DNA of 58,026 bases from Lachnospiraceae bacterium (GTDB taxonomy: Bacteria; Bacillota; Clostridia; Lachnospirales; Lachnospiraceae), in assembly GCA_017553505.1 (NCBI GenBank), contig JAFZLD010000028.1, positions 1 through 58,026 on the forward strand, in the 5' to 3' direction. Positions 40,023-55,326 of this stretch are shown here, in pieces (the stretch's first letter is position 1; each line of letters opens with the position of its first letter). The position numbers and the translations under genes are program-made. A model generated the notes under the pieces. That model was not told the DNA's origin, ran no database searches, and worked only from the letters and a program-made list of their open reading frames with translations.

Positions 40023-41618
40023 TTAGTTCCCTGCAGCTGCTATAAGTGCCGCTATCTGCTCGGGAGTCATCTTCGCGTTGGGGTCTGCAGGCATCTCAAC
40101 TTGAGGTGCCGGAGCGGGCTCAGGAGCAGGTTCGGAAGCCGCTTCTGCTACGGGTTCAGGTGCAGGCTCCGGTGCGGGTGCTTCCGCTACGGGTTCAGGC
40201 GCAGGCTCAAGTGCGGGTGCCTCCGCTACAGGTTCAGGCACAGGCTCCGATGCGGGTGCTTCCGCTACAGGTTCGGGTGCCGGTTCAGGCGCGGGCGCTT
40301 CGGCCTTGGCTGCCTTCTTCGTAGTTTTCTTCGGCTTCTCCGGAGCAGGCTCAGGCGCGGGTTCCGGAGCTGCTTCAGCTACAGGCTCAGGCGCAGGCTC
40401 AGGAGCAGGCGCTGCCTCTGGCACTGCTTCAGCGACAGGCGCTTCTGCCGGAGCTTCCGCAGGTGCTTCCGCGGGAGCCTCACCGAGCTCCTCCGCAACC
40501 GCCTCAGCTACCGCCTCGGCTACAGGTTTCTCCAGAAACTCCTGTACCGCCGCATCCGCTTCGCTTAATACACTATCGGCCATAGCCGCCACATCTTCAG
40601 GAATCACTATATCTTCGGGAACAGCTTCAGCCACTGCTTCTGCCGCAGCAACTTCTTCAGCTCCGCCCGGTAACGCTTCGGTCTCAGCCGCAAGCGCTTC
40701 CAAATTTACTTCTGCATCTGCAACCGCCGCTGCTTCTTCGGGAGCAACGTCAACCGCAATATCTCCAAGCCCATTAAGCAATGCTTCCGCTTCGGCCGCA
40801 ATAGCCTCTGCCGATACATCGCCGGCTGCTTCTTCGGCCACAGGCTCTTCCACTGCTATATTCGCAAGAGCGACATCAAGATTGACATCTTCAACCGCTA
40901 TATCTCCGAGTCCTTCAAGATTAACATCCACAGGAATCTCTTCTGTCGCTATATCGCCAAGTGCACCAAGGTCTACATCGGCAACCGCCTCTTCGACAGC
41001 GACCGTTTCATCAACCGCAATATCTCCAAGTCCCTCAATACCTGCATCAACAGCCACCTCTTCCGTAGCCAAATCGCCAAGTCCTTCAAGCGCGGCCGCA
41101 ATATCACTATCGCTTACTTCTTCCGCACCCGCCTCAAGCGCCACGCTTTCATCTGCGCTAAGCAAAGCTTCAACGGAAGCCGCCAGATCATCAGTATCCG
41201 TAACCGCTTCTGCCTCACCGACACTCAGTCCCAAATCTCCGCTTAAATCAAGCTCACCTTCTTCACCGAGAGCCTCTTCAAGCACCTGTCTGTTTCTGCC
41301 CATGAACCCAAGCGGCTTCATATCAGGTGCTTCTACGCCTTCCGAACCCGCAACAACATCATCCATATGCGGCACATCGCTCATGGCATCAAGCGTCTTC
41401 TTAAGTTCCTCAAAGGTTCTCTTCAAATTATCGTAATCACCGATCTTCGCCTTAAGAGACTCGTTTTCTTTAGCCAGCTCATTCTTTTCTTTTAACGTCT
41501 TATCAAGCAGGCGCGCAAGGAAAAAAGAACTGAAAACATAGTCCTTAAGCATGGGATCGAGGCAACTGATGTTAAGTTCCTCAAGCACTTCCATATCAAC
41601 AGGCAGATCGTTAAGCAT
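40023..41618 (-). CDS. Acidic low-complexity repeat protein
   Basis: 531 residues, very rich in Ala, Glu and Pro. The first 80 residues look folded (MLNDLPVDMEVLEELNISCL) and end in a coiled coil (KTLKEKNELAKENESLKAKI). The middle holds several GLGDIAV(D/E)-type repeats (for example IEGLGDIAVDE and LEGLGDIAVED). The last third repeats PAPEPVAEAPA units, broken by a basic patch (KPKKTTKKAAK). The end MTPEQIAALIAAAGN resembles the short helix at FliM/FliN N-termini. No signal peptide. Function unknown. GGAGAG precedes the ATG. A long reading frame on the other strand is a shadow of the repeats. Confidence 0.75.
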   Translation of the reverse strand: MLNDLPVDMEVLEELNISCLDPMLKDYVFSSFFLARLLDKTLKEKNELAKENESLKAKIGDYDNLKRTFEELKKTLDAMSDVPHMDDVVAGSEGVEAPDMKPLGFMGRNRQVLEEALGEEGELDLSGDLGLSVGEAEAVTDTDDLAASVEALLSADESVALEAGAEEVSDSDIAAALEGLGDLATEEVAVDAGIEGLGDIAVDETVAVEEAVADVDLGALGDIATEEIPVDVNLEGLGDIAVEDVNLDVALANIAVEEPVAEEAAGDVSAEAIAAEAEALLNGLGDIAVDVAPEEAAAVADAEVNLEALAAETEALPGGAEEVAAAEAVAEAVPEDIVIPEDVAAMADSVLSEADAAVQEFLEKPVAEAVAEAVAEELGEAPAEAPAEAPAEAPVAEAVPEAAPAPEPAPEPVAEAAPEPAPEPAPEKPKKTTKKAAKAEAPAPEPAPEPVAEAPASEPVPEPVAEAPALEPAPEPVAEAPAPEPAPEPVAEAASEPAPEPAPAPQVEMPADPNAKMTPEQIAALIAAAGN

Positions 41619-41881: not shown

Positions 41882-42958
41882 CTATCTTCTTGCCATAGCT
41901 TCTTCGAAATCCTTGGTTCCTGCGAAAATCTCGAACTTGTAAGGATTCTTGTGAAGGGCCTTGGCGCGCTTGAAGATTACGCCTAAGCAGATGACATTGG
42001 CCGCAAGTGCAAGGATTGCAACTACGCCCTGAGCTGTAGGGTTAGCGGTGATGCCTGCTGCAGTAAGTTCCTGAACGGTCTTGAACTTGGTCATGTCAAT
42101 TGCGGTGATGCCGTGCTCCACAGCTCCTGCGTAAAGTGAAGGAAGTGTTGAGAACGGGGATGTAATCTGGAAGAGCGGGAATACCTGAGCGAACATACAC
42201 CAGATTGCAAGGGTGTTGGCACGGTTCTGAATCCAGCCGCCTTTGTTCCAGAATGCATTGGCAAAAGTAGGTGCGAGAAGCAATGCCACACCACAGTACC
42301 ATGTATGGGTAGGTAAGTTACAGTAAGTATACTCAAAGTTCCATACGTCGTAAGCGATGATGAACCAGAAGGTCATATCGGGCCAGAGCATATCGTCTTT
42401 CTTCTTGGAAGAGTAGATGCCCCACCAGCCGGTCATACAGAAGATGTTGAGTACGCCTGCGATAGCGTTGACAACATTCCACCAGCCACCGTAGAGCCAT
42501 ACGTTCTCGGAAGAGAACCACCAGCCGCCTGCCATGCCGCCTGCGTTGAAACCGTTGACAGCCGACTCAATATCGGAGCCGACAGCGATTAAAATGTTGA
42601 TTGCAACGATAATGAAAGGCCAAGGCTTGAACCAGTCTTTCTTACCGATGCCCCAACCGTATTTAATCATCATGAAGCCGACACATCCGATGTCTGCCGC
42701 ATAGAGCTTAGCGTAGTGGAACCAGCCGTTCATGTAAAGAACCGTCTGATTGGTCTGCGCCCAAGCCGCACCACTCTTATATCCGAGAGTAGCCGCAATA
42801 AAGTAAACAGTCAAAATAATAGGGATGACGATGAATACGCACACACCGCCGACCTTTGTTCTTCTGCCGATTTCGTTCATAAGAATGAGTCCGCAGAATA
42901 CGAGGACGAAGCCCAGAAGCTGCATCATGGACTGATCGCCGTAAAGTTGGAAAAGCAT
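41882..42958 (-). CDS. Polytopic membrane protein, DUF5692-like
   Basis: 358 residues with about nine transmembrane helices and many aromatic residues (AGGWWFSSENVWLYGGWWNV). There is no signal peptide cut. The sequence matches my memory of the DUF5692 family from anaerobic Firmicutes, whose function is undescribed. Histidine and cysteine appear in the conserved-looking stretch EYTYCNLPTHTWYCG, which could bind metal. It is encoded 45 bp after hypA and is the last gene of the hypB-flavoprotein-hypA run. A role in nickel handling or electron transfer is inference from context only. Confidence 0.75.
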   Translation of the reverse strand: MLFQLYGDQSMMQLLGFVLVFCGLILMNEIGRRTKVGGVCVFIVIPIILTVYFIAATLGYKSGAAWAQTNQTVLYMNGWFHYAKLYAADIGCVGFMMIKYGWGIGKKDWFKPWPFIIVAINILIAVGSDIESAVNGFNAGGMAGGWWFSSENVWLYGGWWNVVNAIAGVLNIFCMTGWWGIYSSKKKDDMLWPDMTFWFIIAYDVWNFEYTYCNLPTHTWYCGVALLLAPTFANAFWNKGGWIQNRANTLAIWCMFAQVFPLFQITSPFSTLPSLYAGAVEHGITAIDMTKFKTVQELTAAGITANPTAQGVVAILALAANVICLGVIFKRAKALHKNPYKFEIFAGTKDFEEAMARR

Positions 42959-43003
42959 AATATATCCTCCTTTTTCCTTTTATCCTTTATACATCATCGG
43001 GTT

Positions 43004-43348
43004 CTACGACCCGCTGATCTCTTTAATCATAAATTCGTTCCCCTGCTGTAAGAACGTGTGGGTACTGCCGCAATTCGGACAGGTCTTACCGTTTTCTATG
43101 GTGTCAAAAGAAGTCTTACAGTCTTCACAAAAAGAAATCGCTTCGATGGGCTCTATGATAAGCTCGGCCTCTTTGAGTAAATCAGTCTTCTTGACCGCCC
43201 AGTTCCAGCAGTCGGTAAGGTATTCGGGGATAACCGTCGATACCTTACCAAGCTGCAAAGTTACTGAAGATATTCCTGTCAGATTGTTCTCACGGCCCAC
43301 AGCCGTGACATCATCGATTATGTGAAAAACAACACCTAATTCATGCAT
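43004..43348 (-). CDS. hypA: Nickel metallochaperone HypA
   Basis: A 114-residue nickel chaperone. It begins MHELG, where His2 and Glu3 are the nickel ligands of the HypA family. The zinc site is present as C74, C77, C90 and C93 (FCEDC and TCPNCGS). In known systems HypA works with HypB to load nickel into [NiFe]-hydrogenase or urease. It lies 6 bp after the Fe-S flavoprotein gene. No hydrogenase, urease or other hyp gene is in the window. Confidence 0.93.
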   Translation of the reverse strand: MHELGVVFHIIDDVTAVGRENNLTGISSVTLQLGKVSTVIPEYLTDCWNWAVKKTDLLKEAELIIEPIEAISFCEDCKTSFDTIENGKTCPNCGSTHTFLQQGNEFMIKEISGS

Positions 43349-43354
43349 AATCTT

Positions 43355-46150
43355 TTATTCCCATGTTTCGTTCTTCTTGGGCTTAACATGAACCTTGATG
43401 GCCTGCTTTAAGCCGTTGGGAAGAATGTACTTAAGCTTGTCTTCGCTCTTACGCATGGTTGAAGCTTCAGGAACGTCTCTCTTTAAGTGGATAGCGTCGA
43501 ATTCGCAACGGGTTGTACACAGACCGCAGCCTACGCACTGGTTGTAATCCACAATTGTGGCACCGCAGCCTAAGCATCTTGCAGTCTCTTTCTTAACCTG
43601 CTCTTCGGTGAATACGAGCTTCTTGTCTCTGAAGGAAAGCTTGTCGCCTTCTTTGTATCCCGGAATCTGACGGGAAGAATTGTCGTAGCTTTCGATGGAG
43701 ATATCGTCCTTGTTAAGCTCTACATAGTAGTTCTGATTACGTCCGATGGTAAGGGAAGCATGAGGCTGTACAAATCTGTGGATTGATGTAGCCGCTTCTT
43801 TACCTGCCGCAATAGCGTCGATGGCGAACTTGGGACCTGTGTATACGTCACCGCCTACGAAAATATCGGGTTCGGCGGTCTGATATGTCTTAGCGTCTGC
43901 TACGGCACCGTTACCGCGGCCAAGCTCAACCTTGGAGCCTGCAAGTAAGTCGCCCCATACGATGCTCTGTCCGACTGCGAGAACGATGTGCTTACATTCG
44001 ATTCTCATGGTGTCGTTCTCATCGTACTGAGGATTGAATCTGCCGTCGGCATCCTTAACGCTGGTACATTTCTTGAAGGTAATACCGCATACAGCGCCTT
44101 CGTCGTCCAAGTGAATTTCCTTGGGACCCCAGCCGCCGTGGAACTGTACTCCGTCTTCCTCGGCTTCTGCGATTTCATACTTAGCTGCGGGCATAATCTC
44201 TCTTGTCTCAAGAGAAACCTGCGATACCTTGGGAGCGCCTACTCTTACAGCGTCACGTGAGCAGTCGATGGCAACGTTACCGCCGCCGATTACAACTACA
44301 TCGCCCTTGATGTCGTAAGATTCGTTGGCATTGACTTCGCGAAGGAAATCAACCGCGGTGACAACGCGCTTGCCGTCTTCACCCGGTACTCCTACTTTAC
44401 GCCCGCCTTGGCAACCGATTGCTATATAGAATGCCTTGTAGCCCTGGGCACGAAGTTCATCAAGAGTTACGTCCTTGCCGACTTCTACGCCGCACTTAAA
44501 CTCAACGCCCATGATGCGCATGATTTCAACTTCGGCATCGATAACGCTCTTCTCAAGTTTGTAAGAAGGAATACCGTAGGTAAGCATACCGCCGGGACGT
44601 GCGTTCTTTTCAAATACTGTAGGTCTGTAGCCTTTCTCTGCAAGGTAGTATGCACAGGAAAGACCTGCGGGACCCGCACCGATGATGGCAATCTTCTCTT
44701 CGAACTCGCCGTTAACCTTGGGAATAACCTTCTTGGGGATAAATCTGGTCTCGGCATCTAAATCCTTCATCGCAATAAACTTCTTAACTTCATCGATTGC
44801 GATTGCTTCGTCGATGGTGCCTCTTGTGCAGGCATCTTCACAACGACGGTTACAGATGTGACCGCAGATTGCGGGAAGCGGATTGTTCTTCTTGATAAGT
44901 GCCAAAGCCTCTGTGTACTTACCCTGTGAAGCAAGCTTAAGATAACCCTGAACAGCAATGTGTGCGGGGCAGGCTGTCTTACAAGGTGCGGTACCTGACT
45001 CGTGAGTTTCAATTCTGTTGTTGTCTCTGTAATCCCAGTCCCAGTCGTCCTTGCTCCAAGGCTTGTCGGAAGGAAGCAGGTGCTTAGGATACTTAACGTC
45101 TGTGCCGTCTTTCTTACAAAGCTTCTGGCCGAGAGAAAGTGCGCCGGCGGGACATACTTCTACGCAACGGCCGCAGGCAACGCATTTTTCTTTTTCCACG
45201 TGTGCTCTGTAAGCGGAAGCAGACATGTTGGGAGTGTTAAATAACTGTGATGTACGAAGGGCGTAGCACACGTTAACGTTACAGTTACAGATAGCGAAAA
45301 TCTTGTTCTCGCCGTCGATGTTGGTAATCTGGTGTACGAAGCCGTTCTCTTCACCTTTCTTAAGAATCTCGAGAGCTTCTTCCTTAGTGATGTAACGTCC
45401 GCCCTTGCCGGTCTCGACTACGTAATCAGCCATGTCGCCCACAGCGATACACCAGTCGTGGAAGTCATCCGCACAACCTTCATCATAGGTCATACGTGAA
45501 CGACGGCACGAACAAGGTGAAGCTGCGTACTTGCCTTCATACTTGTCAAGCCAGTGAGAAATCTTTTCGATGGATATTGCTTCGTTGCACATATCCACTT
45601 CTTTCTGCACGGGAATAACGTGCATACCGATGCCGGCTCCGCCTGCGGGTACCATGGGGGTAACCTTCTCAAGGGGAAGTCTTGTCATATGTTCAAAGAA
45701 CATACCAAGCTCGGGATGCTCGTCGATGAGCTTTAAGTTCATGTTGGAGAACTCACCTGAACCGGGCACGAACATGGGAAGTACCCACTGTTTCTCGTGC
45801 TTCTCGTTCTCCCAGTTGTACTCAACAAGACCTGTATAAGAAATCTTGTCAAGCATCTCTGTAAGTTCTTCGTCAGACATTCCGGAGCTTTTCTTTAAAT
45901 CTTCGAAAGTCTTAGGCTGTCTGATAGCCTTAAAATTGTCGATAACAAACTTCGCAATGTTATCGTCGTCATAGCATAAAATGCGCACTGCCCAGTATTC
46001 GGGATCGTCCTTGGTCACTTTGTGAAACTTAAGCTTAATCGGAATACGGTCCGTGATGAGGGCACCAAGCTTTGCAATGTTTTCCTTCATAGGCTCGCTT
46101 ACGTCAACGTAATCGGGTCTTAAAGGATAATTGGGATCTTTTCCTGCCAT
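43355..46150 (-). CDS. Multi-Fe-S, GltD-like NAD(P)/FAD oxidoreductase
   Basis: 931 residues. Residues 1-310 form an N-terminal Fe-S domain with PCSCR (213-216) and ICNCNVNVC (288-295). A ferredoxin-type cluster motif CVACGRCVEVCPAGA lies at 323-336. A dihydropyrimidine dehydrogenase/GltD-like Fe-S region follows (C390, C394, C429, C433, C437, C441). Next are an FAD fold (IIGAGPAGLSCA near 489-500), an NAD(P) fold with VVVIGGGNVAID near 630, and a C-terminal pair of CxxC clusters (C859-C883). It probably passes electrons from NAD(P)H through flavin to Fe-S clusters. The partner is unknown. It sits between hypB and hypA. Confidence 0.85.
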   Translation of the reverse strand: MAGKDPNYPLRPDYVDVSEPMKENIAKLGALITDRIPIKLKFHKVTKDDPEYWAVRILCYDDDNIAKFVIDNFKAIRQPKTFEDLKKSSGMSDEELTEMLDKISYTGLVEYNWENEKHEKQWVLPMFVPGSGEFSNMNLKLIDEHPELGMFFEHMTRLPLEKVTPMVPAGGAGIGMHVIPVQKEVDMCNEAISIEKISHWLDKYEGKYAASPCSCRRSRMTYDEGCADDFHDWCIAVGDMADYVVETGKGGRYITKEEALEILKKGEENGFVHQITNIDGENKIFAICNCNVNVCYALRTSQLFNTPNMSASAYRAHVEKEKCVACGRCVEVCPAGALSLGQKLCKKDGTDVKYPKHLLPSDKPWSKDDWDWDYRDNNRIETHESGTAPCKTACPAHIAVQGYLKLASQGKYTEALALIKKNNPLPAICGHICNRRCEDACTRGTIDEAIAIDEVKKFIAMKDLDAETRFIPKKVIPKVNGEFEEKIAIIGAGPAGLSCAYYLAEKGYRPTVFEKNARPGGMLTYGIPSYKLEKSVIDAEVEIMRIMGVEFKCGVEVGKDVTLDELRAQGYKAFYIAIGCQGGRKVGVPGEDGKRVVTAVDFLREVNANESYDIKGDVVVIGGGNVAIDCSRDAVRVGAPKVSQVSLETREIMPAAKYEIAEAEEDGVQFHGGWGPKEIHLDDEGAVCGITFKKCTSVKDADGRFNPQYDENDTMRIECKHIVLAVGQSIVWGDLLAGSKVELGRGNGAVADAKTYQTAEPDIFVGGDVYTGPKFAIDAIAAGKEAATSIHRFVQPHASLTIGRNQNYYVELNKDDISIESYDNSSRQIPGYKEGDKLSFRDKKLVFTEEQVKKETARCLGCGATIVDYNQCVGCGLCTTRCEFDAIHLKRDVPEASTMRKSEDKLKYILPNGLKQAIKVHVKPKKNETWE

Positions 46151-46221
46151 TAATATCCTCCTAATCTAACTAACAATCTAACTGTACTTGCCTTACATAA
46201 GTCGCAAGGACTTATTCCGGC

Positions 46222-46893
46222 TTACCCTTTATTAATCCGAATTTCTTCTTCCAACCATTTCACAAATTCATCGACTCCCTCGCCGGTCTTCGCGCAAATC
46301 GGAATGACCTTTGCTTGGGGATTGCGAAGTTTTATGTTCTCCTTACATTTCTCCAAATCGAAGTCAAAATAAGGCATAACATCAATTTTGTTAATCAGTA
46401 CCACATCACAAATAGAAAACATGAGGGGGTACTTAAGCGGCTTATCGTCGCCTTCGGGTACCGAAAGAATCATTGCGTTCTTGGTCGCACCCGTATCAAA
46501 CTCTGCGGGACACACAAGGTTACCCACATTCTCTAGTATAGCAAAGTCCACCTTACCATCTATTAACTCGTCAAGTCCCTGTCTGGTCATGCCCGCATCC
46601 AGGTGGCACATACCGCCCGTATGAAGCTGAATTGACTTAACTCCCGTCTCCTTCGCAATAGCGATTGCGTCAACGTCCGAGTCGATATCCGCCTCCATAA
46701 CACCTATGTTGTGGGTGTATTTCATGCGGTTGATGGTGGCTTTAAGGGTAGTGGTCTTACCGCTTCCCGGCGACGACATAAGGTTCAAAAGAAAGATACC
46801 CTTGGACCTAAGTTCTTCTCTTAACCGATCCGCTTCTCTGTCGTTGCTTTCATATACGCTTTTCTTAATCTCTATAACTTTAACTGCGTCCAT
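46222..46893 (-). CDS. hypB: Nickel-incorporation GTPase HypB
   Basis: A 223-residue GTPase. It has Walker A SPGSGKTT at 41-48, the metal site GGMCHLDA with C96 and H97, and ENVGNLVCPAEFD with C128, followed by LINKID and a GTP base motif. The N-terminal high-affinity CxxCGC nickel motif and histidine stretch of some HypB are absent. It heads the hypB-flavoprotein-hypA-DUF5692 run. AGGAGG is just before the ATG. A small hairpin (GCGCTT/AAGCGC) without a T-run lies upstream, so separation from the galactoside operon is not certain. Confidence 0.94.
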   Translation of the reverse strand: MDAVKVIEIKKSVYESNDREADRLREELRSKGIFLLNLMSSPGSGKTTTLKATINRMKYTHNIGVMEADIDSDVDAIAIAKETGVKSIQLHTGGMCHLDAGMTRQGLDELIDGKVDFAILENVGNLVCPAEFDTGATKNAMILSVPEGDDKPLKYPLMFSICDVVLINKIDVMPYFDFDLEKCKENIKLRNPQAKVIPICAKTGEGVDEFVKWLEEEIRINKG

Positions 46894-46966: not shown

Positions 46967-48430
46967 TTAATTAGCTTTTGCTTTAATCTCTTCGCAGATT
47001 TCCACGTATCTCTTCTCGTCGATCTTGTAGAATCTTCTGTACAAAATTACGGAAATCAGCATGAAACAGCAAGGTACAAGCGTCATTGCAAGAAGCAAAC
47101 CGTTCTTCTGTCCGCCGGATACCGACTTAATAACTTCGTCGATTGCAGCTGCCTTAGCTTCTGCTGTAATCTCGCCCTTCTCAGCGGATGTTTCAAGATC
47201 CGAGATAGCGTTGGTGTACTGAGTAACCTTACATACAAGGTATGAAACTGTAGTGATTATTACGGTAAAAGAACTTGCCATCTTGGTAAGGAAAGGTCTC
47301 ATGGAAGTAATAATCGCTTCGTCTCTGGTGCCGTGCTTAAGCTCGTTGTACTCTACGGTGTTGATAATGGAAATCATCATGATTAAGTAAAGTCCGTACT
47401 GACCGAGGTTAGCAAGCATGAAGCCTCCGGTAAGTACCCAGAACTTAACCATTGTAGCGGGCATAAAGAAGCCGGCGCAAATCTGCATGAGGTAACCGAT
47501 TGTAGCCACGGTACCCATCATGAATACCATTCTTTGTCTGTGAAGCTTCTTGCTGAGTGTGGGATACAGAACCATAAGCACTGCGGTTGCCGCCATACCG
47601 ATGGTCTGGAAGGTTCCGTACAAACCGCCTTCGTAACCAAACTCAAAGTAAATATAATTGGCACCTACGCCACCGAGCACGATACCGTTACCGATCTGCT
47701 GAAGTAAGAAAATAAGGCAGATCCAAAGGAGCTGGTCGTTGCCGCCGATGGTGGTAATAATCTTTTTGAAGCTGACCTTCGGAGCTTCTTTGGCCATATC
47801 GTCTCTGTTTTCACGTACTCCGAAGAGTGTAAAAAGAATGAACAAAGGAGTAAGGATACAGATGATAAGTGCGATACGTCCGTAAGCAATCTTGGTGGTG
47901 CCGCCGAGTGCGAATTCACCTGCGGTAAATACCGGGATAAGCACTGAAGCAAGAGTACCGCCGATACCTGCAAAAAGTGTGGCGCGTGCGGTGAAAGCAT
48001 TTCTCTTGTCGGCATCCTTGGAAAGTGCGGGAACCATTCCCCAGTAGGAAATGTCGTGCATGGTGTAAGTGATACTGTACATAAAGTAAATTACCCCAAA
48101 GAACACGATGAAGTTCCAGCCGGTCAAATCTGTGTTAAAAGCAAGGTACACTACGACGCTGGTCGAAAGGATACCTGCCAAAAGCCAGGGCTTAAACTTA
48201 CCCCACTTACTGCGGGTACGCTCGATGATGTTACCCATAATCGGGTCGTTTAACGCATCAAATACACGCGCGGCCACCATGATGGCGGTTACAGCGGTAA
48301 GCTGTGCCGGTGTTAAGTTTCTCGTGTAAAGGATGTAAAGCATGATATAGTTCGTAAAGAGCGAATATATCATGTCCCTTCCCACTGTACCCAGGGGGTA
48401 GAAAAGCATGTTTTTCTTTTCCTGATTCAT
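46967..48430 (-). CDS. GPH-family sugar transporter (MelB/YicJ-like)
   Basis: 487 residues with about 12 transmembrane helices. The N-terminal pattern LGTVGRDMIYSLFTNYIMLY and the RVFDALNDPIMGNIIERTRSK-like loop (partial) after helix 2 identify the glycoside-pentoside-hexuronide cation symporters. It likely brings in galactosides cleaved by the upstream enzymes. Last gene of the tetR-GH2-GT-like-GH36-transporter operon, 21 bp after GH36. Confidence 0.9.
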   Translation of the reverse strand: MNQEKKNMLFYPLGTVGRDMIYSLFTNYIMLYILYTRNLTPAQLTAVTAIMVAARVFDALNDPIMGNIIERTRSKWGKFKPWLLAGILSTSVVVYLAFNTDLTGWNFIVFFGVIYFMYSITYTMHDISYWGMVPALSKDADKRNAFTARATLFAGIGGTLASVLIPVFTAGEFALGGTTKIAYGRIALIICILTPLFILFTLFGVRENRDDMAKEAPKVSFKKIITTIGGNDQLLWICLIFLLQQIGNGIVLGGVGANYIYFEFGYEGGLYGTFQTIGMAATAVLMVLYPTLSKKLHRQRMVFMMGTVATIGYLMQICAGFFMPATMVKFWVLTGGFMLANLGQYGLYLIMMISIINTVEYNELKHGTRDEAIITSMRPFLTKMASSFTVIITTVSYLVCKVTQYTNAISDLETSAEKGEITAEAKAAAIDEVIKSVSGGQKNGLLLAMTLVPCCFMLISVILYRRFYKIDEKRYVEICEEIKAKAN

Positions 48431-48451
48431 TGTTTCATATCCTCCAATACA

Positions 48452-50794
48452 TTAATCTATACTCTCAATAAAGTACATTCTTGATGAAAAGTCCTGGAAC
48501 AGTCTGGTCTCTTGATTGTAGCCCGTTCCGCCGAAAGCCTGCGTAAGCTTGATGCCTACGTTGTTAAGGAGCTCTCCGCTTACCGTGTAATCCTCGACCT
48601 CTCCGTCCATCTTCACAAACTTCGCAATGGTGTTGTGCATGAGCGAATCCTGCTTAACATGCACGGGAGCCACCTGATTAACCAAGCTTCCGAACTGCTT
48701 GATGTTGTGACGAAGCTTAACGTTGTATACGTGGTAAGTCTTATCCTCCGCAAGCCCCACGGTCTTAATCTTTCTGTAGAATTCATTGGGGTTGCAAAGT
48801 CCGTTCCAGATCATGGTGACCGCTCGCTTCTTATCCGGCGATACCACCATCCACTGAGTGTCGTCCACTCTGTAAAAGTCTCCGCCAAAGAAAACGTCGC
48901 GCCACTCCTTATATGTCTCAATCTGAGCCTTAATCGCCTTGAAATCCTCGGCGTTGCATTCGCCAAGGTTAATCTCATAACCGAGCACTCCGAAAGCCGC
49001 TACGTTGAACCTTGTGTCAAGCGGGGTGTTGCGAAGCGTCTGGTGATTGGGGCAGGCAGACACGTGTGCGGTGACTGTGGACATCGGATAGCCGTAGCTG
49101 TAACCTGTCTGAATGAAGGTACGCTCGTAAGCGTCCGAATCGTCGCTTCCCCAAGTCTGAGGCATGTAAGCCGTCATTCCGAGGTCGAATCTGTTGCCGC
49201 CGGATGCGCAGTTCTCAAAAAGAACATCGGGGAACTCTTCCGTCAGTGCCTTAAGTATTTCGTAAAGTCCGAGGACATATCTGTGAGCGCATTCGCCCTG
49301 TCGCTCGGGAGGAAGTGCCTTGGAGTATACGTCCGAGAACATTCTGTTCATGTCCCACTTAACGTAGCTTACGCCCTTGGCGCCTATAACTCGGCGCATC
49401 GAGTTCTTAACGTACTCTCGTACTTCGGGCTGAGTTAAGTCAAGAATCATCTGATTACGCCCGGGCGAATTGTCGCGTCCGGGAACCGTCATTGCATATT
49501 CGGGGTGAGCTTCGTATAAATCGCTCTTTTCGCTTATCATCTCAGGCTCTACCCAGATACCGAAATCAAGTCCTATATCATTAACCTTGCGGGCAAGTCC
49601 TTCGATACCGCCCGGAAGTTTCTTTTTATCTTCTGTCCAGTCACCGAGGGATGTGGTGTCGTCGTTACGACCTTTGAACCATCCGTCGTCCATTACGAGG
49701 AGCTCTATGCCGGCTTCCTTGGCCTTCTTGGCAAGGCTTAAGATGCGGGATTCGCTGATGTTAAAGTACGCAGCCTCCCAGGAGTTAAGGAGTATCGGTC
49801 TTGCCTTATCCGCGTACTTACCACGCACGATGTGCTTCTTTACAAAGTGCTGCATGTTAAGCGACAGTTCTCTGAAGCCTGCTGCAGAGTAGGTCATCAC
49901 TGCTTCGGGAGTCTCAAACTCTTCACCGGGCTCAAGTACCCACTCAAAGTTCTGAGGGTTGATACCCGTAATGAATCTTGTCTTGTAGAATCCGCTAACG
50001 TCAACCGCTTCGTAGTGATTGCCGGAGTAAATAAGGTTGAATCCGTAGCAGTCGCCGGCTTCCTCGGTTGCATCAGCTTTGGTTAACATAACAAATGGAT
50101 TGCTTCTGTTGGAAGACACACCGGATGCCGTGGCATTCACGAATGTGTGATTCTCAACAATCGTATCCGTGCGCTTCATCTCGCGTCCCCAGTTGCCGCC
50201 GAAGGTAATAGCCTTAAGACCGGCCTCGTCTATGTCGAGCTGAGCGCTCATGATGCGCTTTATAACAATGTTTTCTTTCTCTGAATTTACAAGAACCGCG
50301 CGACGGGTAATTACGTTGCACTTTTCAAAAACCGTGTAGTACAGCACAAGCGTGACATGGCGAACGCGCTCCGTAAGCACTACCTTAAGCTGCTTAACGT
50401 CCTCGCCTGCGGGAATCGCTGAGGGCATTCCTTTGAGCATCTCGGGAGTGTCGAGCACCATGGCTTCTTTGAATATAAAGTCCGAAGTGCTGCTGCCGTC
50501 GGGATATCTTACCAGTATGAAAGGCTCTCGAAGATCGCCCTTGCCCACCGATGACACCTCAAGCAGCATGTCCTCGGTAACGGTCAAAGAATCCTTCGAG
50601 TAATTAATAGTCGTGCCCTTGCCGTGGCTTACCTTCTCACGCATTGCGCGCACGGAGTCGGTCACAGCTTCGTCACAGACATCCACACGCTTGCCGTAAT
50701 GATAGTGCTCGAGAAGACCTTCGTCGGTCACCCCGAATATGTATGATGTATTGTCGGTACTTAAGAAAAATGTGTTACCTCTGACAGTAATCAT
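48452..50794 (-). CDS. Alpha-galactosidase, GH36
   Basis: 780 residues. It cleaves alpha-galactosides such as melibiose or raffinose-type sugars. The nucleophile is D481 in YVKWDMNR, and the acid/base aspartate lies in GSDDSD (551-554). WVEPEMISEKSDLY and ENCASGGNRFDLG are GH36 signatures. There is no signal peptide, so it is cytoplasmic. It lies 9 bp after the GT-like gene and 21 bp before the transporter. Normal length for the large clade-I enzymes. Confidence 0.95.
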   Translation of the reverse strand: MITVRGNTFFLSTDNTSYIFGVTDEGLLEHYHYGKRVDVCDEAVTDSVRAMREKVSHGKGTTINYSKDSLTVTEDMLLEVSSVGKGDLREPFILVRYPDGSSTSDFIFKEAMVLDTPEMLKGMPSAIPAGEDVKQLKVVLTERVRHVTLVLYYTVFEKCNVITRRAVLVNSEKENIVIKRIMSAQLDIDEAGLKAITFGGNWGREMKRTDTIVENHTFVNATASGVSSNRSNPFVMLTKADATEEAGDCYGFNLIYSGNHYEAVDVSGFYKTRFITGINPQNFEWVLEPGEEFETPEAVMTYSAAGFRELSLNMQHFVKKHIVRGKYADKARPILLNSWEAAYFNISESRILSLAKKAKEAGIELLVMDDGWFKGRNDDTTSLGDWTEDKKKLPGGIEGLARKVNDIGLDFGIWVEPEMISEKSDLYEAHPEYAMTVPGRDNSPGRNQMILDLTQPEVREYVKNSMRRVIGAKGVSYVKWDMNRMFSDVYSKALPPERQGECAHRYVLGLYEILKALTEEFPDVLFENCASGGNRFDLGMTAYMPQTWGSDDSDAYERTFIQTGYSYGYPMSTVTAHVSACPNHQTLRNTPLDTRFNVAAFGVLGYEINLGECNAEDFKAIKAQIETYKEWRDVFFGGDFYRVDDTQWMVVSPDKKRAVTMIWNGLCNPNEFYRKIKTVGLAEDKTYHVYNVKLRHNIKQFGSLVNQVAPVHVKQDSLMHNTIAKFVKMDGEVEDYTVSGELLNNVGIKLTQAFGGTGYNQETRLFQDFSSRMYFIESID

Positions 50795-50803
50795 TTAGTC
50801 ACC

Positions 50804-52306
50804 CTATCCCTTATTCTTCTCATTCATCGCAAGCTCAACCACGCGCATCGCGCCGTCATATAAGCCTGCTTTCTTGTTAATTACTATGCTCTCGCACATG
50901 CCCTTAAGCATGTCGCCCGAATTCATGAAAAGATCCACCATCTGAAGTGTGTGCGGAATATCTCTGCACTCAAGCGTTCCATCGCCCATCTCCGCGGAGT
51001 GGATTGCGCCCCACATCTCGTGCTTGCCGACTCTCTTTATAAAGAGCTTGGGCACAGGGTAAAAAGAAAGCTCGCTGGGCTTGGTAACCATTACGTCTGC
51101 GCTTCTCATTAAGAGGTTCGTGCAGTATACCGCTTCGAAAATGTTCTTGTGGCAGAATGCGTGAATACCTTTAACTTCTGTCGCAGGATCGAGTGCCGCA
51201 GCAGCAAAGTTCTCGGTATTTTTCCAGTTGTTAAGATGCTCGGTGTAAAGGCCTCCCATTGCGGGGATCTCACGCTTTAAGTCTTCCCAGACTGCGCCGT
51301 AGTCGCCTACGTTAACGTAGAGAGCCGCTTTTCTCTCCTTGATGAAGGGAATAAGGTAGCTGATGATTGCCGCAAAGATTTCTTTTTGTGCGCCGGCACC
51401 GCCTATGGTAAGTAAAAAGCGCATCGGCTTGCCTTCTTCAAAACGTTTCATGCGGGCTTCGCAGTCTTTCTCGATATTCTCCACAAGCTCATAGTCTACG
51501 TAGTGGCCTGTGTATACGATGCTACCCTCGGGCATGGGCTTGTTAACCTTGTTGCCGTCCATTCCGTTTAAGATACGGTAGCCCTGGTAAGCGTTCTTAC
51601 ACTGAATGGTGTGAATGCCGCCTTCGGTTAAGTGAAGCGCCATGGGCCAGTTATCGGGTATAGCGTTCACCACGTGCTTCATGCCTGCGTGAAGAGCTGC
51701 CTGTGCGGGCCATGCGTGAGTACCTACTACGGGGATGTCCTTGGGCACGTTCTTAAATACGGGGGCCATGAGCTCCGCGTTCTTTTGATCCGAAGAGTTA
51801 TAGGAAAGTGCGCGGAAGCCTTCGTAGTTAAGCGGCTCCCACACGAATTTGTTAAACAAAGGGTTCTTGGAAAGTCTGGAGCCAAGGGAATATAAGTCAT
51901 TCTGAGCGCTGATAACCTTGGTGCAGGTGGTCTCATTGTAGGAGTTAAGGTCCATCCAGTATGGTGTGTAGCCAAGAGCCTTAGCCGCCGAAGCAATCGC
52001 CATGGAAATACGATAATGTCCGAAGCCCATGCGGATATTGCCTACGATGATGCCCTTCTCCATGTCCCAGGCCTCAGCGGATGTCTCAACCGTCTCATCG
52101 TAATGTGCATTGGTCTTGGGATCGCCCACAAGGACGTTAATTACGCCGAGAGAATCGCCGATGTAAGGATTCTTGCTAAGGGTAACCTTATAATCCTTAC
52201 CGGAGTCGTCTCCGTACTTCTTCATGTATTTGGTCTTGGACTTAACAGCCTTTTTGTAAGTCTTATTCGACATTTCATTGCCGAAAATCACTTTAGATCT
52301 GTCCAT
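50804..52306 (-). CDS. GT-B-like protein of unknown function
   Basis: 500 residues, no signal peptide. GIIVGNIRMGFGHYRISMA near residue 85 is like the GxGHxR loop of MurG/diacylglycerol glucosyltransferase (GT28-type) enzymes. FLLTIGGAGAQKEIFA near 300 matches the second GT-B domain start. Together they suggest a nucleotide-sugar or phosphate-binding GT-B fold. In a catabolic operon with GH2 and GH36 it could also be a phosphorylase-like or sugar-modifying enzyme. The family could not be named with confidence. Spacing to both neighbours is about 9 bp. Confidence 0.65.
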   Translation of the reverse strand: MDRSKVIFGNEMSNKTYKKAVKSKTKYMKKYGDDSGKDYKVTLSKNPYIGDSLGVINVLVGDPKTNAHYDETVETSAEAWDMEKGIIVGNIRMGFGHYRISMAIASAAKALGYTPYWMDLNSYNETTCTKVISAQNDLYSLGSRLSKNPLFNKFVWEPLNYEGFRALSYNSSDQKNAELMAPVFKNVPKDIPVVGTHAWPAQAALHAGMKHVVNAIPDNWPMALHLTEGGIHTIQCKNAYQGYRILNGMDGNKVNKPMPEGSIVYTGHYVDYELVENIEKDCEARMKRFEEGKPMRFLLTIGGAGAQKEIFAAIISYLIPFIKERKAALYVNVGDYGAVWEDLKREIPAMGGLYTEHLNNWKNTENFAAAALDPATEVKGIHAFCHKNIFEAVYCTNLLMRSADVMVTKPSELSFYPVPKLFIKRVGKHEMWGAIHSAEMGDGTLECRDIPHTLQMVDLFMNSGDMLKGMCESIVINKKAGLYDGAMRVVELAMNEKNKG

Positions 52307-52315
52307 AGTAACTCC

Positions 52316-54730
52316 TTATAAGCTTTCGGTATTGTCGCAGGTTACGTTGAATTCTATCGTCACGCTCTCTGCATCTGCTGCCTCTATCGTGAGGCTTCCG
52401 CGGCCTTCGCCGAGGGTCTTTACATATGTGCCGCCCATGCCGCCCTTAAGGCTTATTAAGCTTGGTCCGATAAGTTCAATCGCGCCTTCCGCCATAAGTT
52501 TAAGCGGTTCATTGTAAAAGAAAGAGACATTTCCAAACTCATCTGTGGCTTTAATCCTTACAGCCGCAACGTCGTAGGTCTTTCGCTCCACAAGCTCCGT
52601 AAAGTCTGATGTAGCCTCTATAAATATCTTCTTAACGGGCTTCTTGATAAGGGTCTTAACGACCTTACCGTCCTTAATAGCCTCGAAACGATACTCCGTG
52701 GCCTTGGCACCCCAGTCGCCTACATACTTGTTGTAAAGCGGTGTTGCTTTCGACTGGTTCATTGCGTGGAACAGCACAAGCTTGGCCGCAAGTCGCATGA
52801 ACTCTCCCGAAGGATGGCTGAGACCATTCACCGCCACAATATTGAGAGCATTCTTAAGGTCTCTCTTGTAAGCCGCCGAACCGCTCTCGCCTTTCTCTAT
52901 GGCGTCGCCTATGAAGTCATCCACCATGATGGGGCCGTGCGCAAGGTTCTTAAAAGGTGAATCCTCCGCGCGGTATTCCTTAATAAAGCGGTCGTTCTTG
53001 TACATCCTTACGCTGTCGGCGTTCGTATATATCCAGGTAACACCTCTGTTGCACGCGGGATGCTCGCCAATATCCATAGTGGATGAAAGCTCAAGCACCG
53101 GCGTATCTTCCTGAAGCGCGCTGTATATATAAGCCGCAGGCTTTAAATTTCTGAACATGTCAAGAACTCCGTGATAGCAGATTCTGTCTCCGCTTCCGAA
53201 ATCCTTGTGAGTATTGTAATCGGCCATGCACCAGCCAAAAGAACCTGCTATGTCGCTTTCTCCCGCCACAGCATCGAGCACTGTCGCGTGCCGTATCGCA
53301 TGCTCGCGTCTGTGCTCTTCCGTGTCGTAGTTCTTGGTGGGGAACATGTGACCGTTGTATTCGCTTATGAGGTACGCCTTACTCATGTCCGGCGTTACCT
53401 TTTTCTTCTTGTCACAGCCGGCGTTGGTGCCGTCGTGCAGGAAGTCGTTGTATGTGTAGACGTCTTCGAGCAGATTCGACTTCTTAATGCATCTTACGCC
53501 GCCGGTGGCTCTGGTCTTGTCAAGGTCGTGAGCCGCCTGATTGGTAGCCGCATAGAAGAGGTCGTCGTCCGGCGATTCATTGATGCGAACGCCCCAGAGA
53601 ATAATCGAAGGGTGATTACGGTACTGAGCCACCATTTCCCTTGTATTCTCAACGGCTATCTTCTTCCACTCATCATCGCCTATATGCTGCCAGCCCGGAA
53701 TCTCGGTAAAAACAAGCAGACCTATCTCATCACATCTTCTTATAAAGTCATGAGACTGAGGATAATGAGAAGTCCTCACCGCATTAAGCCCAAGCTCACA
53801 CTTAAGCACATCCGCGTCCATAATCTGCATAGACTCGGGCATCGCATAACCCACATAAGGGTAGCTCTGGTGGCGGTTAAGACCGCGAATCTTAATCTTC
53901 TTACCGTTAAGGTAGAACCCGTCAGCCTTAAACGTCGCTGTTCTAAAACCAAAAGCAATCTCCTCGGTATCGAGAATCTCGCCCGACTGCTTTAAAAGCC
54001 TTACCTCAACCGTATATAACTTCGGGTTGTCTATATCCCAAAGGGTAATGTCATCTAAACTTAAGTCAAAAGAAAGCGCCTGCCCGCTCTTTCCTGCATC
54101 AACGGGGCTCTTGCCGAGAAGTTTCTCTTCCAGGTAGGTCGCAACTTCCATGGGTTCTGAAGCGCCTGCCACGGCTCCGCTGTAGGTGAGCTCGGCTGTG
54201 AGAGTCGCTTTATTTTGCGAAAAATCGATGTCGCTGTACACGAATACATCGTCCAAAGAACACTCGTCGGTCACTTCAAGGTATACGTCCCTGTAAATGC
54301 CGCCGTAGGTCATATAATCAATTACAAAGCCGAAAGGGGGCTGGTTAAGCGTTTCGTTACTGTCTACCCTTACCGATATGCGGTTCGGGGCACCGTACAA
54401 AAGCTTATCCGTAAGATCGATTGTAAAAGCGGTATAGCCGCATCTGTGCGTCGTAAGCTTGTCCCTGTTAAGGTAAAGGGTCGCTTCGTGAGCCACTCCT
54501 TCGAAGGTGATTCGCACACGCTTGCCGCGCCAGCCTTCCGGAATCACAACGGTCTTCTCGTAAAGGCTTGTCATCTGATACGCGGACTCGTCGAAACAGT
54601 TAAAGGGAGTGACTGCCACGCTGTGTGGAAGTCTGACTGTCTCGACTGAATTTCCGTCTGTATCGGAAACGAGCTCCGTATCTTCTGAAATGCGGCTGAA
54701 GCGCCAGTCATTATTTAAGTAAATAATCAT
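52316..54730 (-). CDS. Beta-galactosidase-like glycosidase, GH2
   Basis: 804 residues. Order: an N-terminal sugar-binding domain, an immunoglobulin-like domain, and a TIM barrel with acid/base E385 in WGVRINES and nucleophile E457 in ISEYNG. GLNRHQSYPYVG is a GH2 signature. A C-terminal region of about 200 residues adds further beta domains. Beta-galactosidase is most likely given GH36 next door, but beta-glucuronidase or beta-mannosidase cannot be excluded. There is no signal peptide. First enzyme after tetR, 11 bp apart. Confidence 0.92.
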   Translation of the reverse strand: MIIYLNNDWRFSRISEDTELVSDTDGNSVETVRLPHSVAVTPFNCFDESAYQMTSLYEKTVVIPEGWRGKRVRITFEGVAHEATLYLNRDKLTTHRCGYTAFTIDLTDKLLYGAPNRISVRVDSNETLNQPPFGFVIDYMTYGGIYRDVYLEVTDECSLDDVFVYSDIDFSQNKATLTAELTYSGAVAGASEPMEVATYLEEKLLGKSPVDAGKSGQALSFDLSLDDITLWDIDNPKLYTVEVRLLKQSGEILDTEEIAFGFRTATFKADGFYLNGKKIKIRGLNRHQSYPYVGYAMPESMQIMDADVLKCELGLNAVRTSHYPQSHDFIRRCDEIGLLVFTEIPGWQHIGDDEWKKIAVENTREMVAQYRNHPSIILWGVRINESPDDDLFYAATNQAAHDLDKTRATGGVRCIKKSNLLEDVYTYNDFLHDGTNAGCDKKKKVTPDMSKAYLISEYNGHMFPTKNYDTEEHRREHAIRHATVLDAVAGESDIAGSFGWCMADYNTHKDFGSGDRICYHGVLDMFRNLKPAAYIYSALQEDTPVLELSSTMDIGEHPACNRGVTWIYTNADSVRMYKNDRFIKEYRAEDSPFKNLAHGPIMVDDFIGDAIEKGESGSAAYKRDLKNALNIVAVNGLSHPSGEFMRLAAKLVLFHAMNQSKATPLYNKYVGDWGAKATEYRFEAIKDGKVVKTLIKKPVKKIFIEATSDFTELVERKTYDVAAVRIKATDEFGNVSFFYNEPLKLMAEGAIELIGPSLISLKGGMGGTYVKTLGEGRGSLTIEAADAESVTIEFNVTCDNTESL

Positions 54731-54741
54731 TATGGGATCCT

Positions 54742-55326
54742 TTATCTCTTTCGAATTCCTTCAACAACTATGTCAACTACTTCATCAATCGCTTTTTGAT
54801 AAGAAATCTTATTGGAAACTAAGATATCGCGCTGGAAGAATTGCTCAACCGCGGCCTCATACATCAATTTTACCAACAGAATGTTAACGGGTTTCACAAC
54901 GCCTTCCTTCTGTCCCTGCTCAAGAAGGGCTATGGTGGTGTCCCATCCGCTCTCGAGGCGTTTCTCCACTTTCTTGTAGATTACGGGGTACTTGTCCTTA
55001 AGGAGGTAAAGCTTTTCAAAGTCAATCTCCTTGTAGCTCTCGGGCATTACACCGAGAATCTTACGTATCTTATCAAGGGTGGACAAAGAAAGGTCGTTAA
55101 TAACTTCCTGTTCGCTTTTCTTAATACCGTCAAAAAGGTAATCAACCATGGCAAGGAACAGTTCCTCCTTGTCGTTAAAAACAACGTACATGGTCTTCTT
55201 ACTGATATGGCAGTGTGTAGCCACATCGTCCATGGTGAACTTAAGTCCCTTTTTATTGAATAATGTAATGCAGGCCTGCATTATGGATTCTCTTAATTCT
55301 TCTGTACTTTTCTGACTCTTAGGCAT
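54742..55326 (-). CDS. TetR-family regulator of the galactoside operon
   Basis: 194 residues. The N-terminal helix-turn-helix is in FTMDDVATHCHISKKTMYVVF (part), near residues 28-48. The C-terminal ligand domain is not diagnostic. It is the first gene of the GH2-GT-like-GH36-transporter operon, with ribosome binding site GAGGA 6 bp before the ATG. Inverted GGAAAC/GTTTCC half-sites flank its promoter and are good candidates for its own operator, so it probably represses the whole operon. Confidence 0.9.
   Translation of the reverse strand: MPKSQKSTEELRESIMQACITLFNKKGLKFTMDDVATHCHISKKTMYVVFNDKEELFLAMVDYLFDGIKKSEQEVINDLSLSTLDKIRKILGVMPESYKEIDFEKLYLLKDKYPVIYKKVEKRLESGWDTTIALLEQGQKEGVVKPVNILLVKLMYEAAVEQFFQRDILVSNKISYQKAIDEVVDIVVEGIRKR

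Follow-up and report, generated by a model that had tools for sequence, protein, structure and literature searches.

We report that a four-gene cluster in a Lachnospiraceae genome, encoding the nickel chaperones HypA and HypB, a 931-residue flavo-Fe–S oxidoreductase and a DUF5692 membrane protein, is of the IsrA "clade 9" type of Kronen et al. 2023, an arrangement that was already known. Three features of this family are new here, namely the tie between DUF5692 and IsrA, to which one exception was found, the linkage of an isomerase homologue to isrA in another branch of the family, and the presence of Butyrivibrio, Roseburia and rumen Treponema among the carriers. Gene content, linkage, conservation and co-occurrence are directly observed, and the oxidoreductase is probably an NAD(P)H-dependent reductase metallated by HypA and HypB, whose substrate we infer. 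We propose that the oxidoreductase is a conjugated-diene reductase of the IsrA type, that HypA and HypB are its metallochaperones and that DUF5692 is its membrane partner, with a conjugated fatty acid as the likeliest substrate here, and we hold this explanation with slightly better than even confidence.

The gene cluster and its host genome

The cluster occupies positions 46893-41882 on the minus strand of the window, that is, of the whole 58,026-nucleotide stretch of DNA that was analysed. Specifically, hypB (46222..46893, −) encodes a 223-aa nickel-chaperone GTPase that scores 240 bits against NCBIfam TIGR00073, over the cut-off. It is followed by the isrA-type gene (43355..46150, −), whose 931-aa product matches Pfam Fer4, Fer4_20 and Pyr_redox_2, by hypA (43004..43348, −) for a 114-aa nickel chaperone (PF01155, 101 bits), and by the gene for the 358-aa DUF5692 membrane protein (41882..42958, −; PF18948, 449 bits), with intergenic gaps of 71, 6 and 45 bases in that order. 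HypA starts with MHE (His2/Glu3) and carries two CxxC motifs, and its score against NCBIfam TIGR00100 is 61 bits, under the 88-bit cut-off of that model. The first 40 residues of HypB contain zero His, that is, a His-rich leader is absent. Of the relatives found that bear a name, the closest is a Lachnospiraceae MAG from sheep rumen (locus L089), in which the four proteins are 97-100% identical to those of the window. An Rfam search of the window for a nickel riboswitch gave four tRNAs only. Around the cluster, promoter-like sites number 2 vs 7.5 expected, and terminator-like sites 7 vs 5.4 expected.

Elsewhere in the window, three tRNA genes stand in tandem at its edge (3-253, −), and positions 40023-41618 (−) encode an Ala/Glu/Pro-rich protein of 531 aa that matches no Pfam family and in which EAPAPEPAPEPVA-like stretches recur. 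Upstream of hypB (46967-55326, −), genes for an MFS_2 sugar transporter, a GH36 melibiase, a DUF6937/DUF6938 protein, a GH2 glycosidase and a TetR regulator are collinear with short gaps. A functional tie of the cluster to these galactosidase and transporter genes was considered and rejected: L014, L015 and L017 share this gene order, but L012 does not.

The host genome (3.13 Mb in 28 contigs, listed completeness 99.68%) gives 0 matches to the NiFe large subunit (PF00374), 0 to urease alpha (PF00449) and 0 to HypD (PF01924). HypA and HypB of the window thus share families and metal residues with the pairs that serve [NiFe]-hydrogenase and urease maturation, but, unlike in those systems, the host genome is without HypD, NiFe large subunit or urease; the combination of HypD and NiFe large subunit that marks [NiFe]-hydrogenase maturation is absent from it. 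The window's HypA is the one full-length copy in this genome, a second match being partial (24 bits). Taken together, these results bear out much of an earlier sequence-only reading of the window, which had described four genes close together on one strand, a large protein with Fe–S, FAD and NAD(P) folds, a HypA with intact metal residues and no hydrogenase or urease target.

The IsrA-type oxidoreductase

The oxidoreductase consists of a novel N-terminal domain with a six-cysteine (Cys6) site, a ferredoxin-like motif, a GltD/NfnB-type core of Fe–S, FAD and NAD(P) elements, and a C-terminal CxxC...CxxCxxCxxxC Fe–S motif. PDB relatives, namely NfnA/NfnI, the glutamate synthase small chain and related chains, cover the core alone (residues ~387-872). 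This core is shared with NfnB/GltD/NsoC-type flavoproteins, which, however, are without the ~300-residue N-terminal Cys6 domain of the window protein, and residues 1-300 have neither a PDB relative (best E 0.79) nor an NCBIfam relative. Across 29 chosen homologues, 44-69% identical to the window's oxidoreductase, residues C213, C215, C234, C288, C290, C295 and H273 are each invariant (29/29), as are the remaining Fe–S cysteines, and C226 is kept in 23/29. The six cysteines, encoded within the codons for residues 213-295 (45266..45514, −), form a candidate Fe–S or Ni/Fe–S site and a better metal-site candidate than the motif in DUF5692 that is described below. The spacing of C213/C215 and C288/C290 is close to that reported for the IsrA pairs Cys180/182 and Cys254/256, an equivalence by spacing and not by direct alignment.

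According to Kronen et al. 2023 (PMC10134865), IsrA of Acetobacterium wieringae (VUZ27132.1), a clade 9 oxidoreductase induced on isoprene, is proposed as the isoprene reductase; its isr operon has hypA and hypB, the genome is without HypCDEF and NiFe hydrogenase, and nickel is proposed at the six-cysteine site. The window protein shares several features with this group: a length of ~900 aa, Fer4_20 with the FAD/NAD(P) core, an additional N-terminal domain, a Cys6 site with two CxC pairs, and hypA/hypB as neighbours. Likened by description, IsrA of A. wieringae and the window protein agree in size, in domain order and in six conserved cysteines with two CxC pairs, and in both cases hypA and hypB lie alongside in a genome without hydrogenase or HypD. 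The isr operon differs in having a 4Fe-4S ferredoxin gene and a second hypA, whereas the window set is without a ferredoxin gene, has a single hypA and includes DUF5692. The conjugated dienes isoprene and butadiene are reported to be reduced by A. wieringae Y, which leaves ethene and propene unreduced (PMC9765523), and in a 2025 note the locus is described as a putative cluster for diene reduction that includes nickel chaperones (PMC12509576). Because the domain order, the Cys6 site and the hypA/hypB/DUF5692 neighbours match the isoprene-induced IsrA family, and because these sources indicate a strain selective for conjugated dienes and a putative diene reductase locus, a conjugated-diene reductase is the best explanation of the window set.

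A candidate mechanism follows the layout of the protein. NAD(P)H would reduce FAD in the GltD/NfnB-like core, and electrons would pass from FAD via [4Fe-4S] clusters into the N-terminal domain, whose six-cysteine site would convert a conjugated diene to a mono-ene. HypA and HypB may bring the metal, most likely nickel, to this site, and DUF5692 may either dock the soluble reductase at the membrane or hand over a lipophilic substrate. On the other hand, the solved relatives of the core, which include NfnA/NfnI and the glutamate synthase small chain, are also consistent with an enzyme like NfnB, either electron-bifurcating or a ferredoxin:NAD(P) oxidoreductase. Its N-terminal domain would then be an extra electron exit supplied with metal by HypA/HypB, and any organic substrate would be secondary; bifurcation is discussed by Kronen et al. 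2023 (PMC10134865). We regard such an enzyme as improbable here, because the selective isomerase linkage described below and the induction by isoprene indicate a dedicated organic acceptor, and the NfnB partner subunit is missing from the gene set.

Co-occurrence of IsrA with HypA, HypB and DUF5692

Co-occurrence was examined in an order-level draw of 196 genomes, each at least 90% complete. The IsrA set was read by hand and holds 33 genomes (E <= 1e-190, plus G124 and G026, in which the genes are split over contigs); the HypA set holds 48 (51 less G191, G033 and G085, whose 29-30 bit matches lie within long frames), and the HypD set 42 (44 less two 19-bit matches). A full-length IsrA-type protein is thus present in 33/196 genomes, and HypA accompanies it in 33/33. 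Among the 154 genomes without HypD, HypA occurs in 14, of which 13 have IsrA, and none of the 140 that are also without HypA has IsrA. HypD is present in 20/33 IsrA genomes and missing in 13/33, and therefore the cluster exists both with and without the hydrogenase maturation system. Gene linkage is far beyond chance, the Fisher values on co-occurrence taking no account of genome relatedness. The neighbours of 988 IsrA homologues, as given in PMC10134865, include hypA at a frequency of 0.73, hypB at 0.56 and DUF5692, which is also part of the window set, at 0.40.

In a wider scan of DUF5692, restricted to the best 80 of at least 570 loci, isrA lies within 10 kb in 42; hypA is also there in 41/42 and hypB in 31/42. 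This adjacency is what the sequence-only reading had proposed to look for, and the constant company of a hydrogenase that it had named as contrary to its proposal is not seen, with HypD as proxy and the NiFe subunit searched for in the host genome only. HypA and HypB might conceivably supply some other nickel enzyme encoded far from the cluster (e.g. CODH or lactate racemase), with their adjacency to isrA accidental. We judge this highly improbable, given HypA in all IsrA genomes of the draw, IsrA in nearly all HypD-less genomes with HypA, the frequencies of hypA and hypB at loci with both isrA and DUF5692 among the best 80, and a host genome without hydrogenase or urease. The data support the conclusion that HypA and HypB belong here with the flavoprotein rather than with a hydrogenase, which makes a redox system loaded with nickel or another metal plausible. 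The earlier suggestion of such a system holds up to this extent, but neither the system, proposed by Kronen et al. 2023, nor the neighbourhood, whose membrane protein had been called undescribed, was new: the type was published in 2023 (PMC10134865).

DUF5692 has about eight hydrophobic segments by hydropathy (overlapping peaks merged), no solved relative (best E 0.3), and comparison with Pfam gives no further credible relation. Conservation falls on N28, E29, R32, K84, D189, M190, D194 and R246, which include neither Cys nor His. The EYTYCNLPTHTWYCG region, initially put forward as a possible metal site in the membrane protein, was rejected as such, its Cys and His residues not being conserved across the family. 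Specifically, across a divergent set of 24 DUF5692 proteins, C213, the first Cys, is found in 2/24, H218 in 17/24 and C222 in 17/24, and only Y210, Y212, Y221 and G223 of the region are invariant. Among closer relatives (72/81 sequences taken into the alignment), His218 and Cys222 are each kept in 72/72 but Cys213 in 9/72, and therefore the motif is a subfamily feature.

The distribution of DUF5692 follows that of IsrA. In the order-level draw, 28/196 genomes carry DUF5692, one of them (G153) as fragments only, and IsrA is present in 28/28; DUF5692 occurs in 0/163 IsrA-less genomes. Additionally, the other 38 of the best 80 loci, in which isrA is not within 10 kb, all have an IsrA-type match elsewhere in the genome (38/38, E <= 1e-120), and with nine further tested genomes the count of genomes with such a match rises to 47/47, some of the matches being contig-edge fragments (e.g. 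G241, G243, G246). Because DUF5692 is tied to IsrA in both linked and unlinked settings, it argues for the reductase set proposed here. Against this stand G289, which gives no IsrA match (two candidates scored) although it carries both isomerase and DUF5692, two same-genus DUF5692 genomes, G006 and G015, with isrA absent from the stretch examined, and the 5/33 IsrA genomes without DUF5692. A search of viral contigs for DUF5692 gave 90 pattern matches and 0 relatives.

We entertain, as a lesser possibility, that DUF5692 is a transporter needed by the reductase, either a nickel importer or a protein for fatty-acid uptake or flipping, instead of a membrane anchor. Its obligate co-occurrence with IsrA despite frequent lack of linkage would fit such a role, as would the invariant D189-M190...D194. 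However, DUF5692 is without a relative of known function in PDB or Pfam, and unlinked copies have no other conserved neighbour beyond local synteny (at most 7/40 loci, in a count that misses isrA in two loci positive in the 10-kb survey).

Several side observations concern these loci. In L096, L115, L125, L111 and L143, DUF5692, mostly with isrA, lies in contigs labelled Treponema, Bacteroidales or Cryptobacteroides, which points to lateral transfer or misbinning. A cluster of 10 proteins, of which the sampled member is a dCache chemoreceptor, occurs at 8 loci near isrA or DUF5692 (L064, L066, L067, L071, L084 and others). A Trp/Tyr-permease-like transporter is found near hypB or DUF5692 in L012, L071, L082, L083 and L085, accompanied in 4/5 by a calcineurin-like phosphoesterase (one member annotated in each case). 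The 2.1 Mb goat-gut Clostridia genome G253 (that of L154) has ten IsrA-type matches (E <= 1e-120), a strong paralogue expansion.

Isomerase linkage and the substrate

A recurrent neighbour of isrA in other genomes is a flavoprotein of ~413 aa, often accompanied by an HTH protein of ~335 aa. Among PDB entries the flavoprotein best matches 2b9w (residues 12-398, E 4e-22; next 2e-8), entitled 'putative aminooxidase', which we take to be the Cutibacterium acnes polyenoic fatty acid isomerase that converts linoleate to a conjugated diene. The positions aligned to R88 and F193 of 2b9w, presumably its substrate residues, are invariant in nine copies of the isomerase homologue. In the order-level draw, the homologue (E <= 1e-25) occurs in 9/196 genomes, with IsrA in 9/9; of its 11 copies, 9 directly adjoin isrA/hyp genes or DUF5692, one (G153) lies ~4 kb from DUF5692 fragments, and one (G214) is weak and alone. 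A phylum draw of 358 genomes, of which 8 have IsrA, contains the homologue in 6 genomes, 5 of them with IsrA; among its 8 copies there, 7 stand with isrA, hypA and DUF5692 and one with DUF5692 alone. Both draws together place 17/19 copies beside isrA/hyp genes or DUF5692, and therefore, given the homology to 2b9w, an enzyme that makes conjugated fatty acids (by homology) is a recurrent partner of the reductase. Isomerase-like genes with in-frame TGA were observed beside apparently intact isrA-type genes in L177 and L178 (G358, G321). Oleate hydratase was rejected as a general partner, with full-length copies in 5/33 IsrA genomes vs 14/163 others.

The isomerase linkage belongs to a branch other than that of the window. 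In a tree of 36 IsrA-type proteins (midpoint rooting only), the window's IsrA groups with those of Butyrivibrio proteoclasticus, Blautia hansenii and a Treponema; the isomerase adjoins isrA in 0/13 rows of this half and in 14/23 of the other half, with four changes. No isomerase lies within 10 kb at the best 80 of at least 570 DUF5692 loci, which are those closest to the window's, and the host genome contains neither an isomerase homologue nor an oleate hydratase. This counts against the fatty-acid assignment, and the function is therefore transferred to the window's branch by homology and guild, not by linkage.

The carriers of DUF5692 include Butyrivibrio proteoclasticus, B. hungatei, Pseudobutyrivibrio, Lachnospira, Roseburia inulinivorans and rumen Treponema, a taxonomy that is descriptive because it rests on the best 80 of at least 570 loci. 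Roseburia and rumen Treponema belong to the biohydrogenating guild. Fukuda's 2007 CLA reductase may be a polypeptide well under 100 kDa, which would count against the assignment. PMC4478896 names Butyrivibrio as the rumen's chief biohydrogenating group and describes the CLA reductase of B. fibrisolvens as using NADH 1:1 and as membrane-associated but not integral; in 2015 it could not be assigned to a family in KEGG, COG or Pfam, though its sequence was published in 2007. This enzyme acts on conjugated 18:2 and 18:3 but not on non-conjugated t11,c15-18:2, according to PMC2654759. Likened by description and not by sequence, the c9,t11-CLA (rumenate) reductase of B. fibrisolvens (Hughes 1982; Fukuda 2007) resembles the proposed enzyme in being NADH-linked, membrane-associated and active on conjugated dienes.

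A fatty-acid substrate is favored because the isomerase homologue is tied to IsrA, because the B. fibrisolvens activity, NADH-linked, membrane-associated and selective for conjugated acids, was without a database family as of 2015, and because Butyrivibrio, Pseudobutyrivibrio, Roseburia inulinivorans and rumen Treponema are among the best 80 DUF5692 loci. In the Lachnospiraceae branch, the likeliest substrate would be a conjugated fatty acid, e.g. rumenic acid (c9,t11-CLA), which would be reduced to vaccenic acid, and the physiological role may be detoxification of unsaturated fatty acids together with electron disposal. The window's branch may instead act by the same mechanism on a different alkene, conjugated or activated (isoprene, butadiene, polyenes of plants or hosts), with no relation to fatty acids, which we consider rather unlikely. 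The founding IsrA is tied to isoprene, the window's branch is without linked fatty-acid genes, and two or more IsrA paralogues in several genomes fit divergent substrates; these points are opposed by the isomerase linkage in the other branch and by close relatives in Butyrivibrio and rumen Treponema.

Our literature search found no paper joining IsrA-type proteins to fatty-acid biohydrogenation. Within its scope DUF5692 is mentioned by Kronen et al. 2023 alone, and the words 'linoleic', 'Butyrivibrio' and 'rumen' do not occur in the text of PMC10134865. Preprints and most subscription journals were outside its scope, so this silence is weak evidence of novelty.

Going beyond the conjugated-diene reductase proposed above, we tentatively suggest that the long-sought enzyme for reducing conjugated fatty acids in rumen and gut biohydrogenation is IsrA-HypAB-DUF5692, and that this set represents a new class of nickel enzyme. 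With neither hydrogenase nor urease involved, HypA/HypB would load nickel into the six-cysteine site of a flavo-Fe–S protein, which would hydrogenate C=C bonds. If this is true, HypA and HypB would gain a client beyond hydrogenase and urease, and DUF5692, so far functionless in annotation, would become the membrane partner of the reductase. By hydrogenating polyunsaturated fat from the diet, gut anaerobes shape the composition of milk and meat fat, and, if the cluster is the missing reductase, this trait would become readable from genomes.
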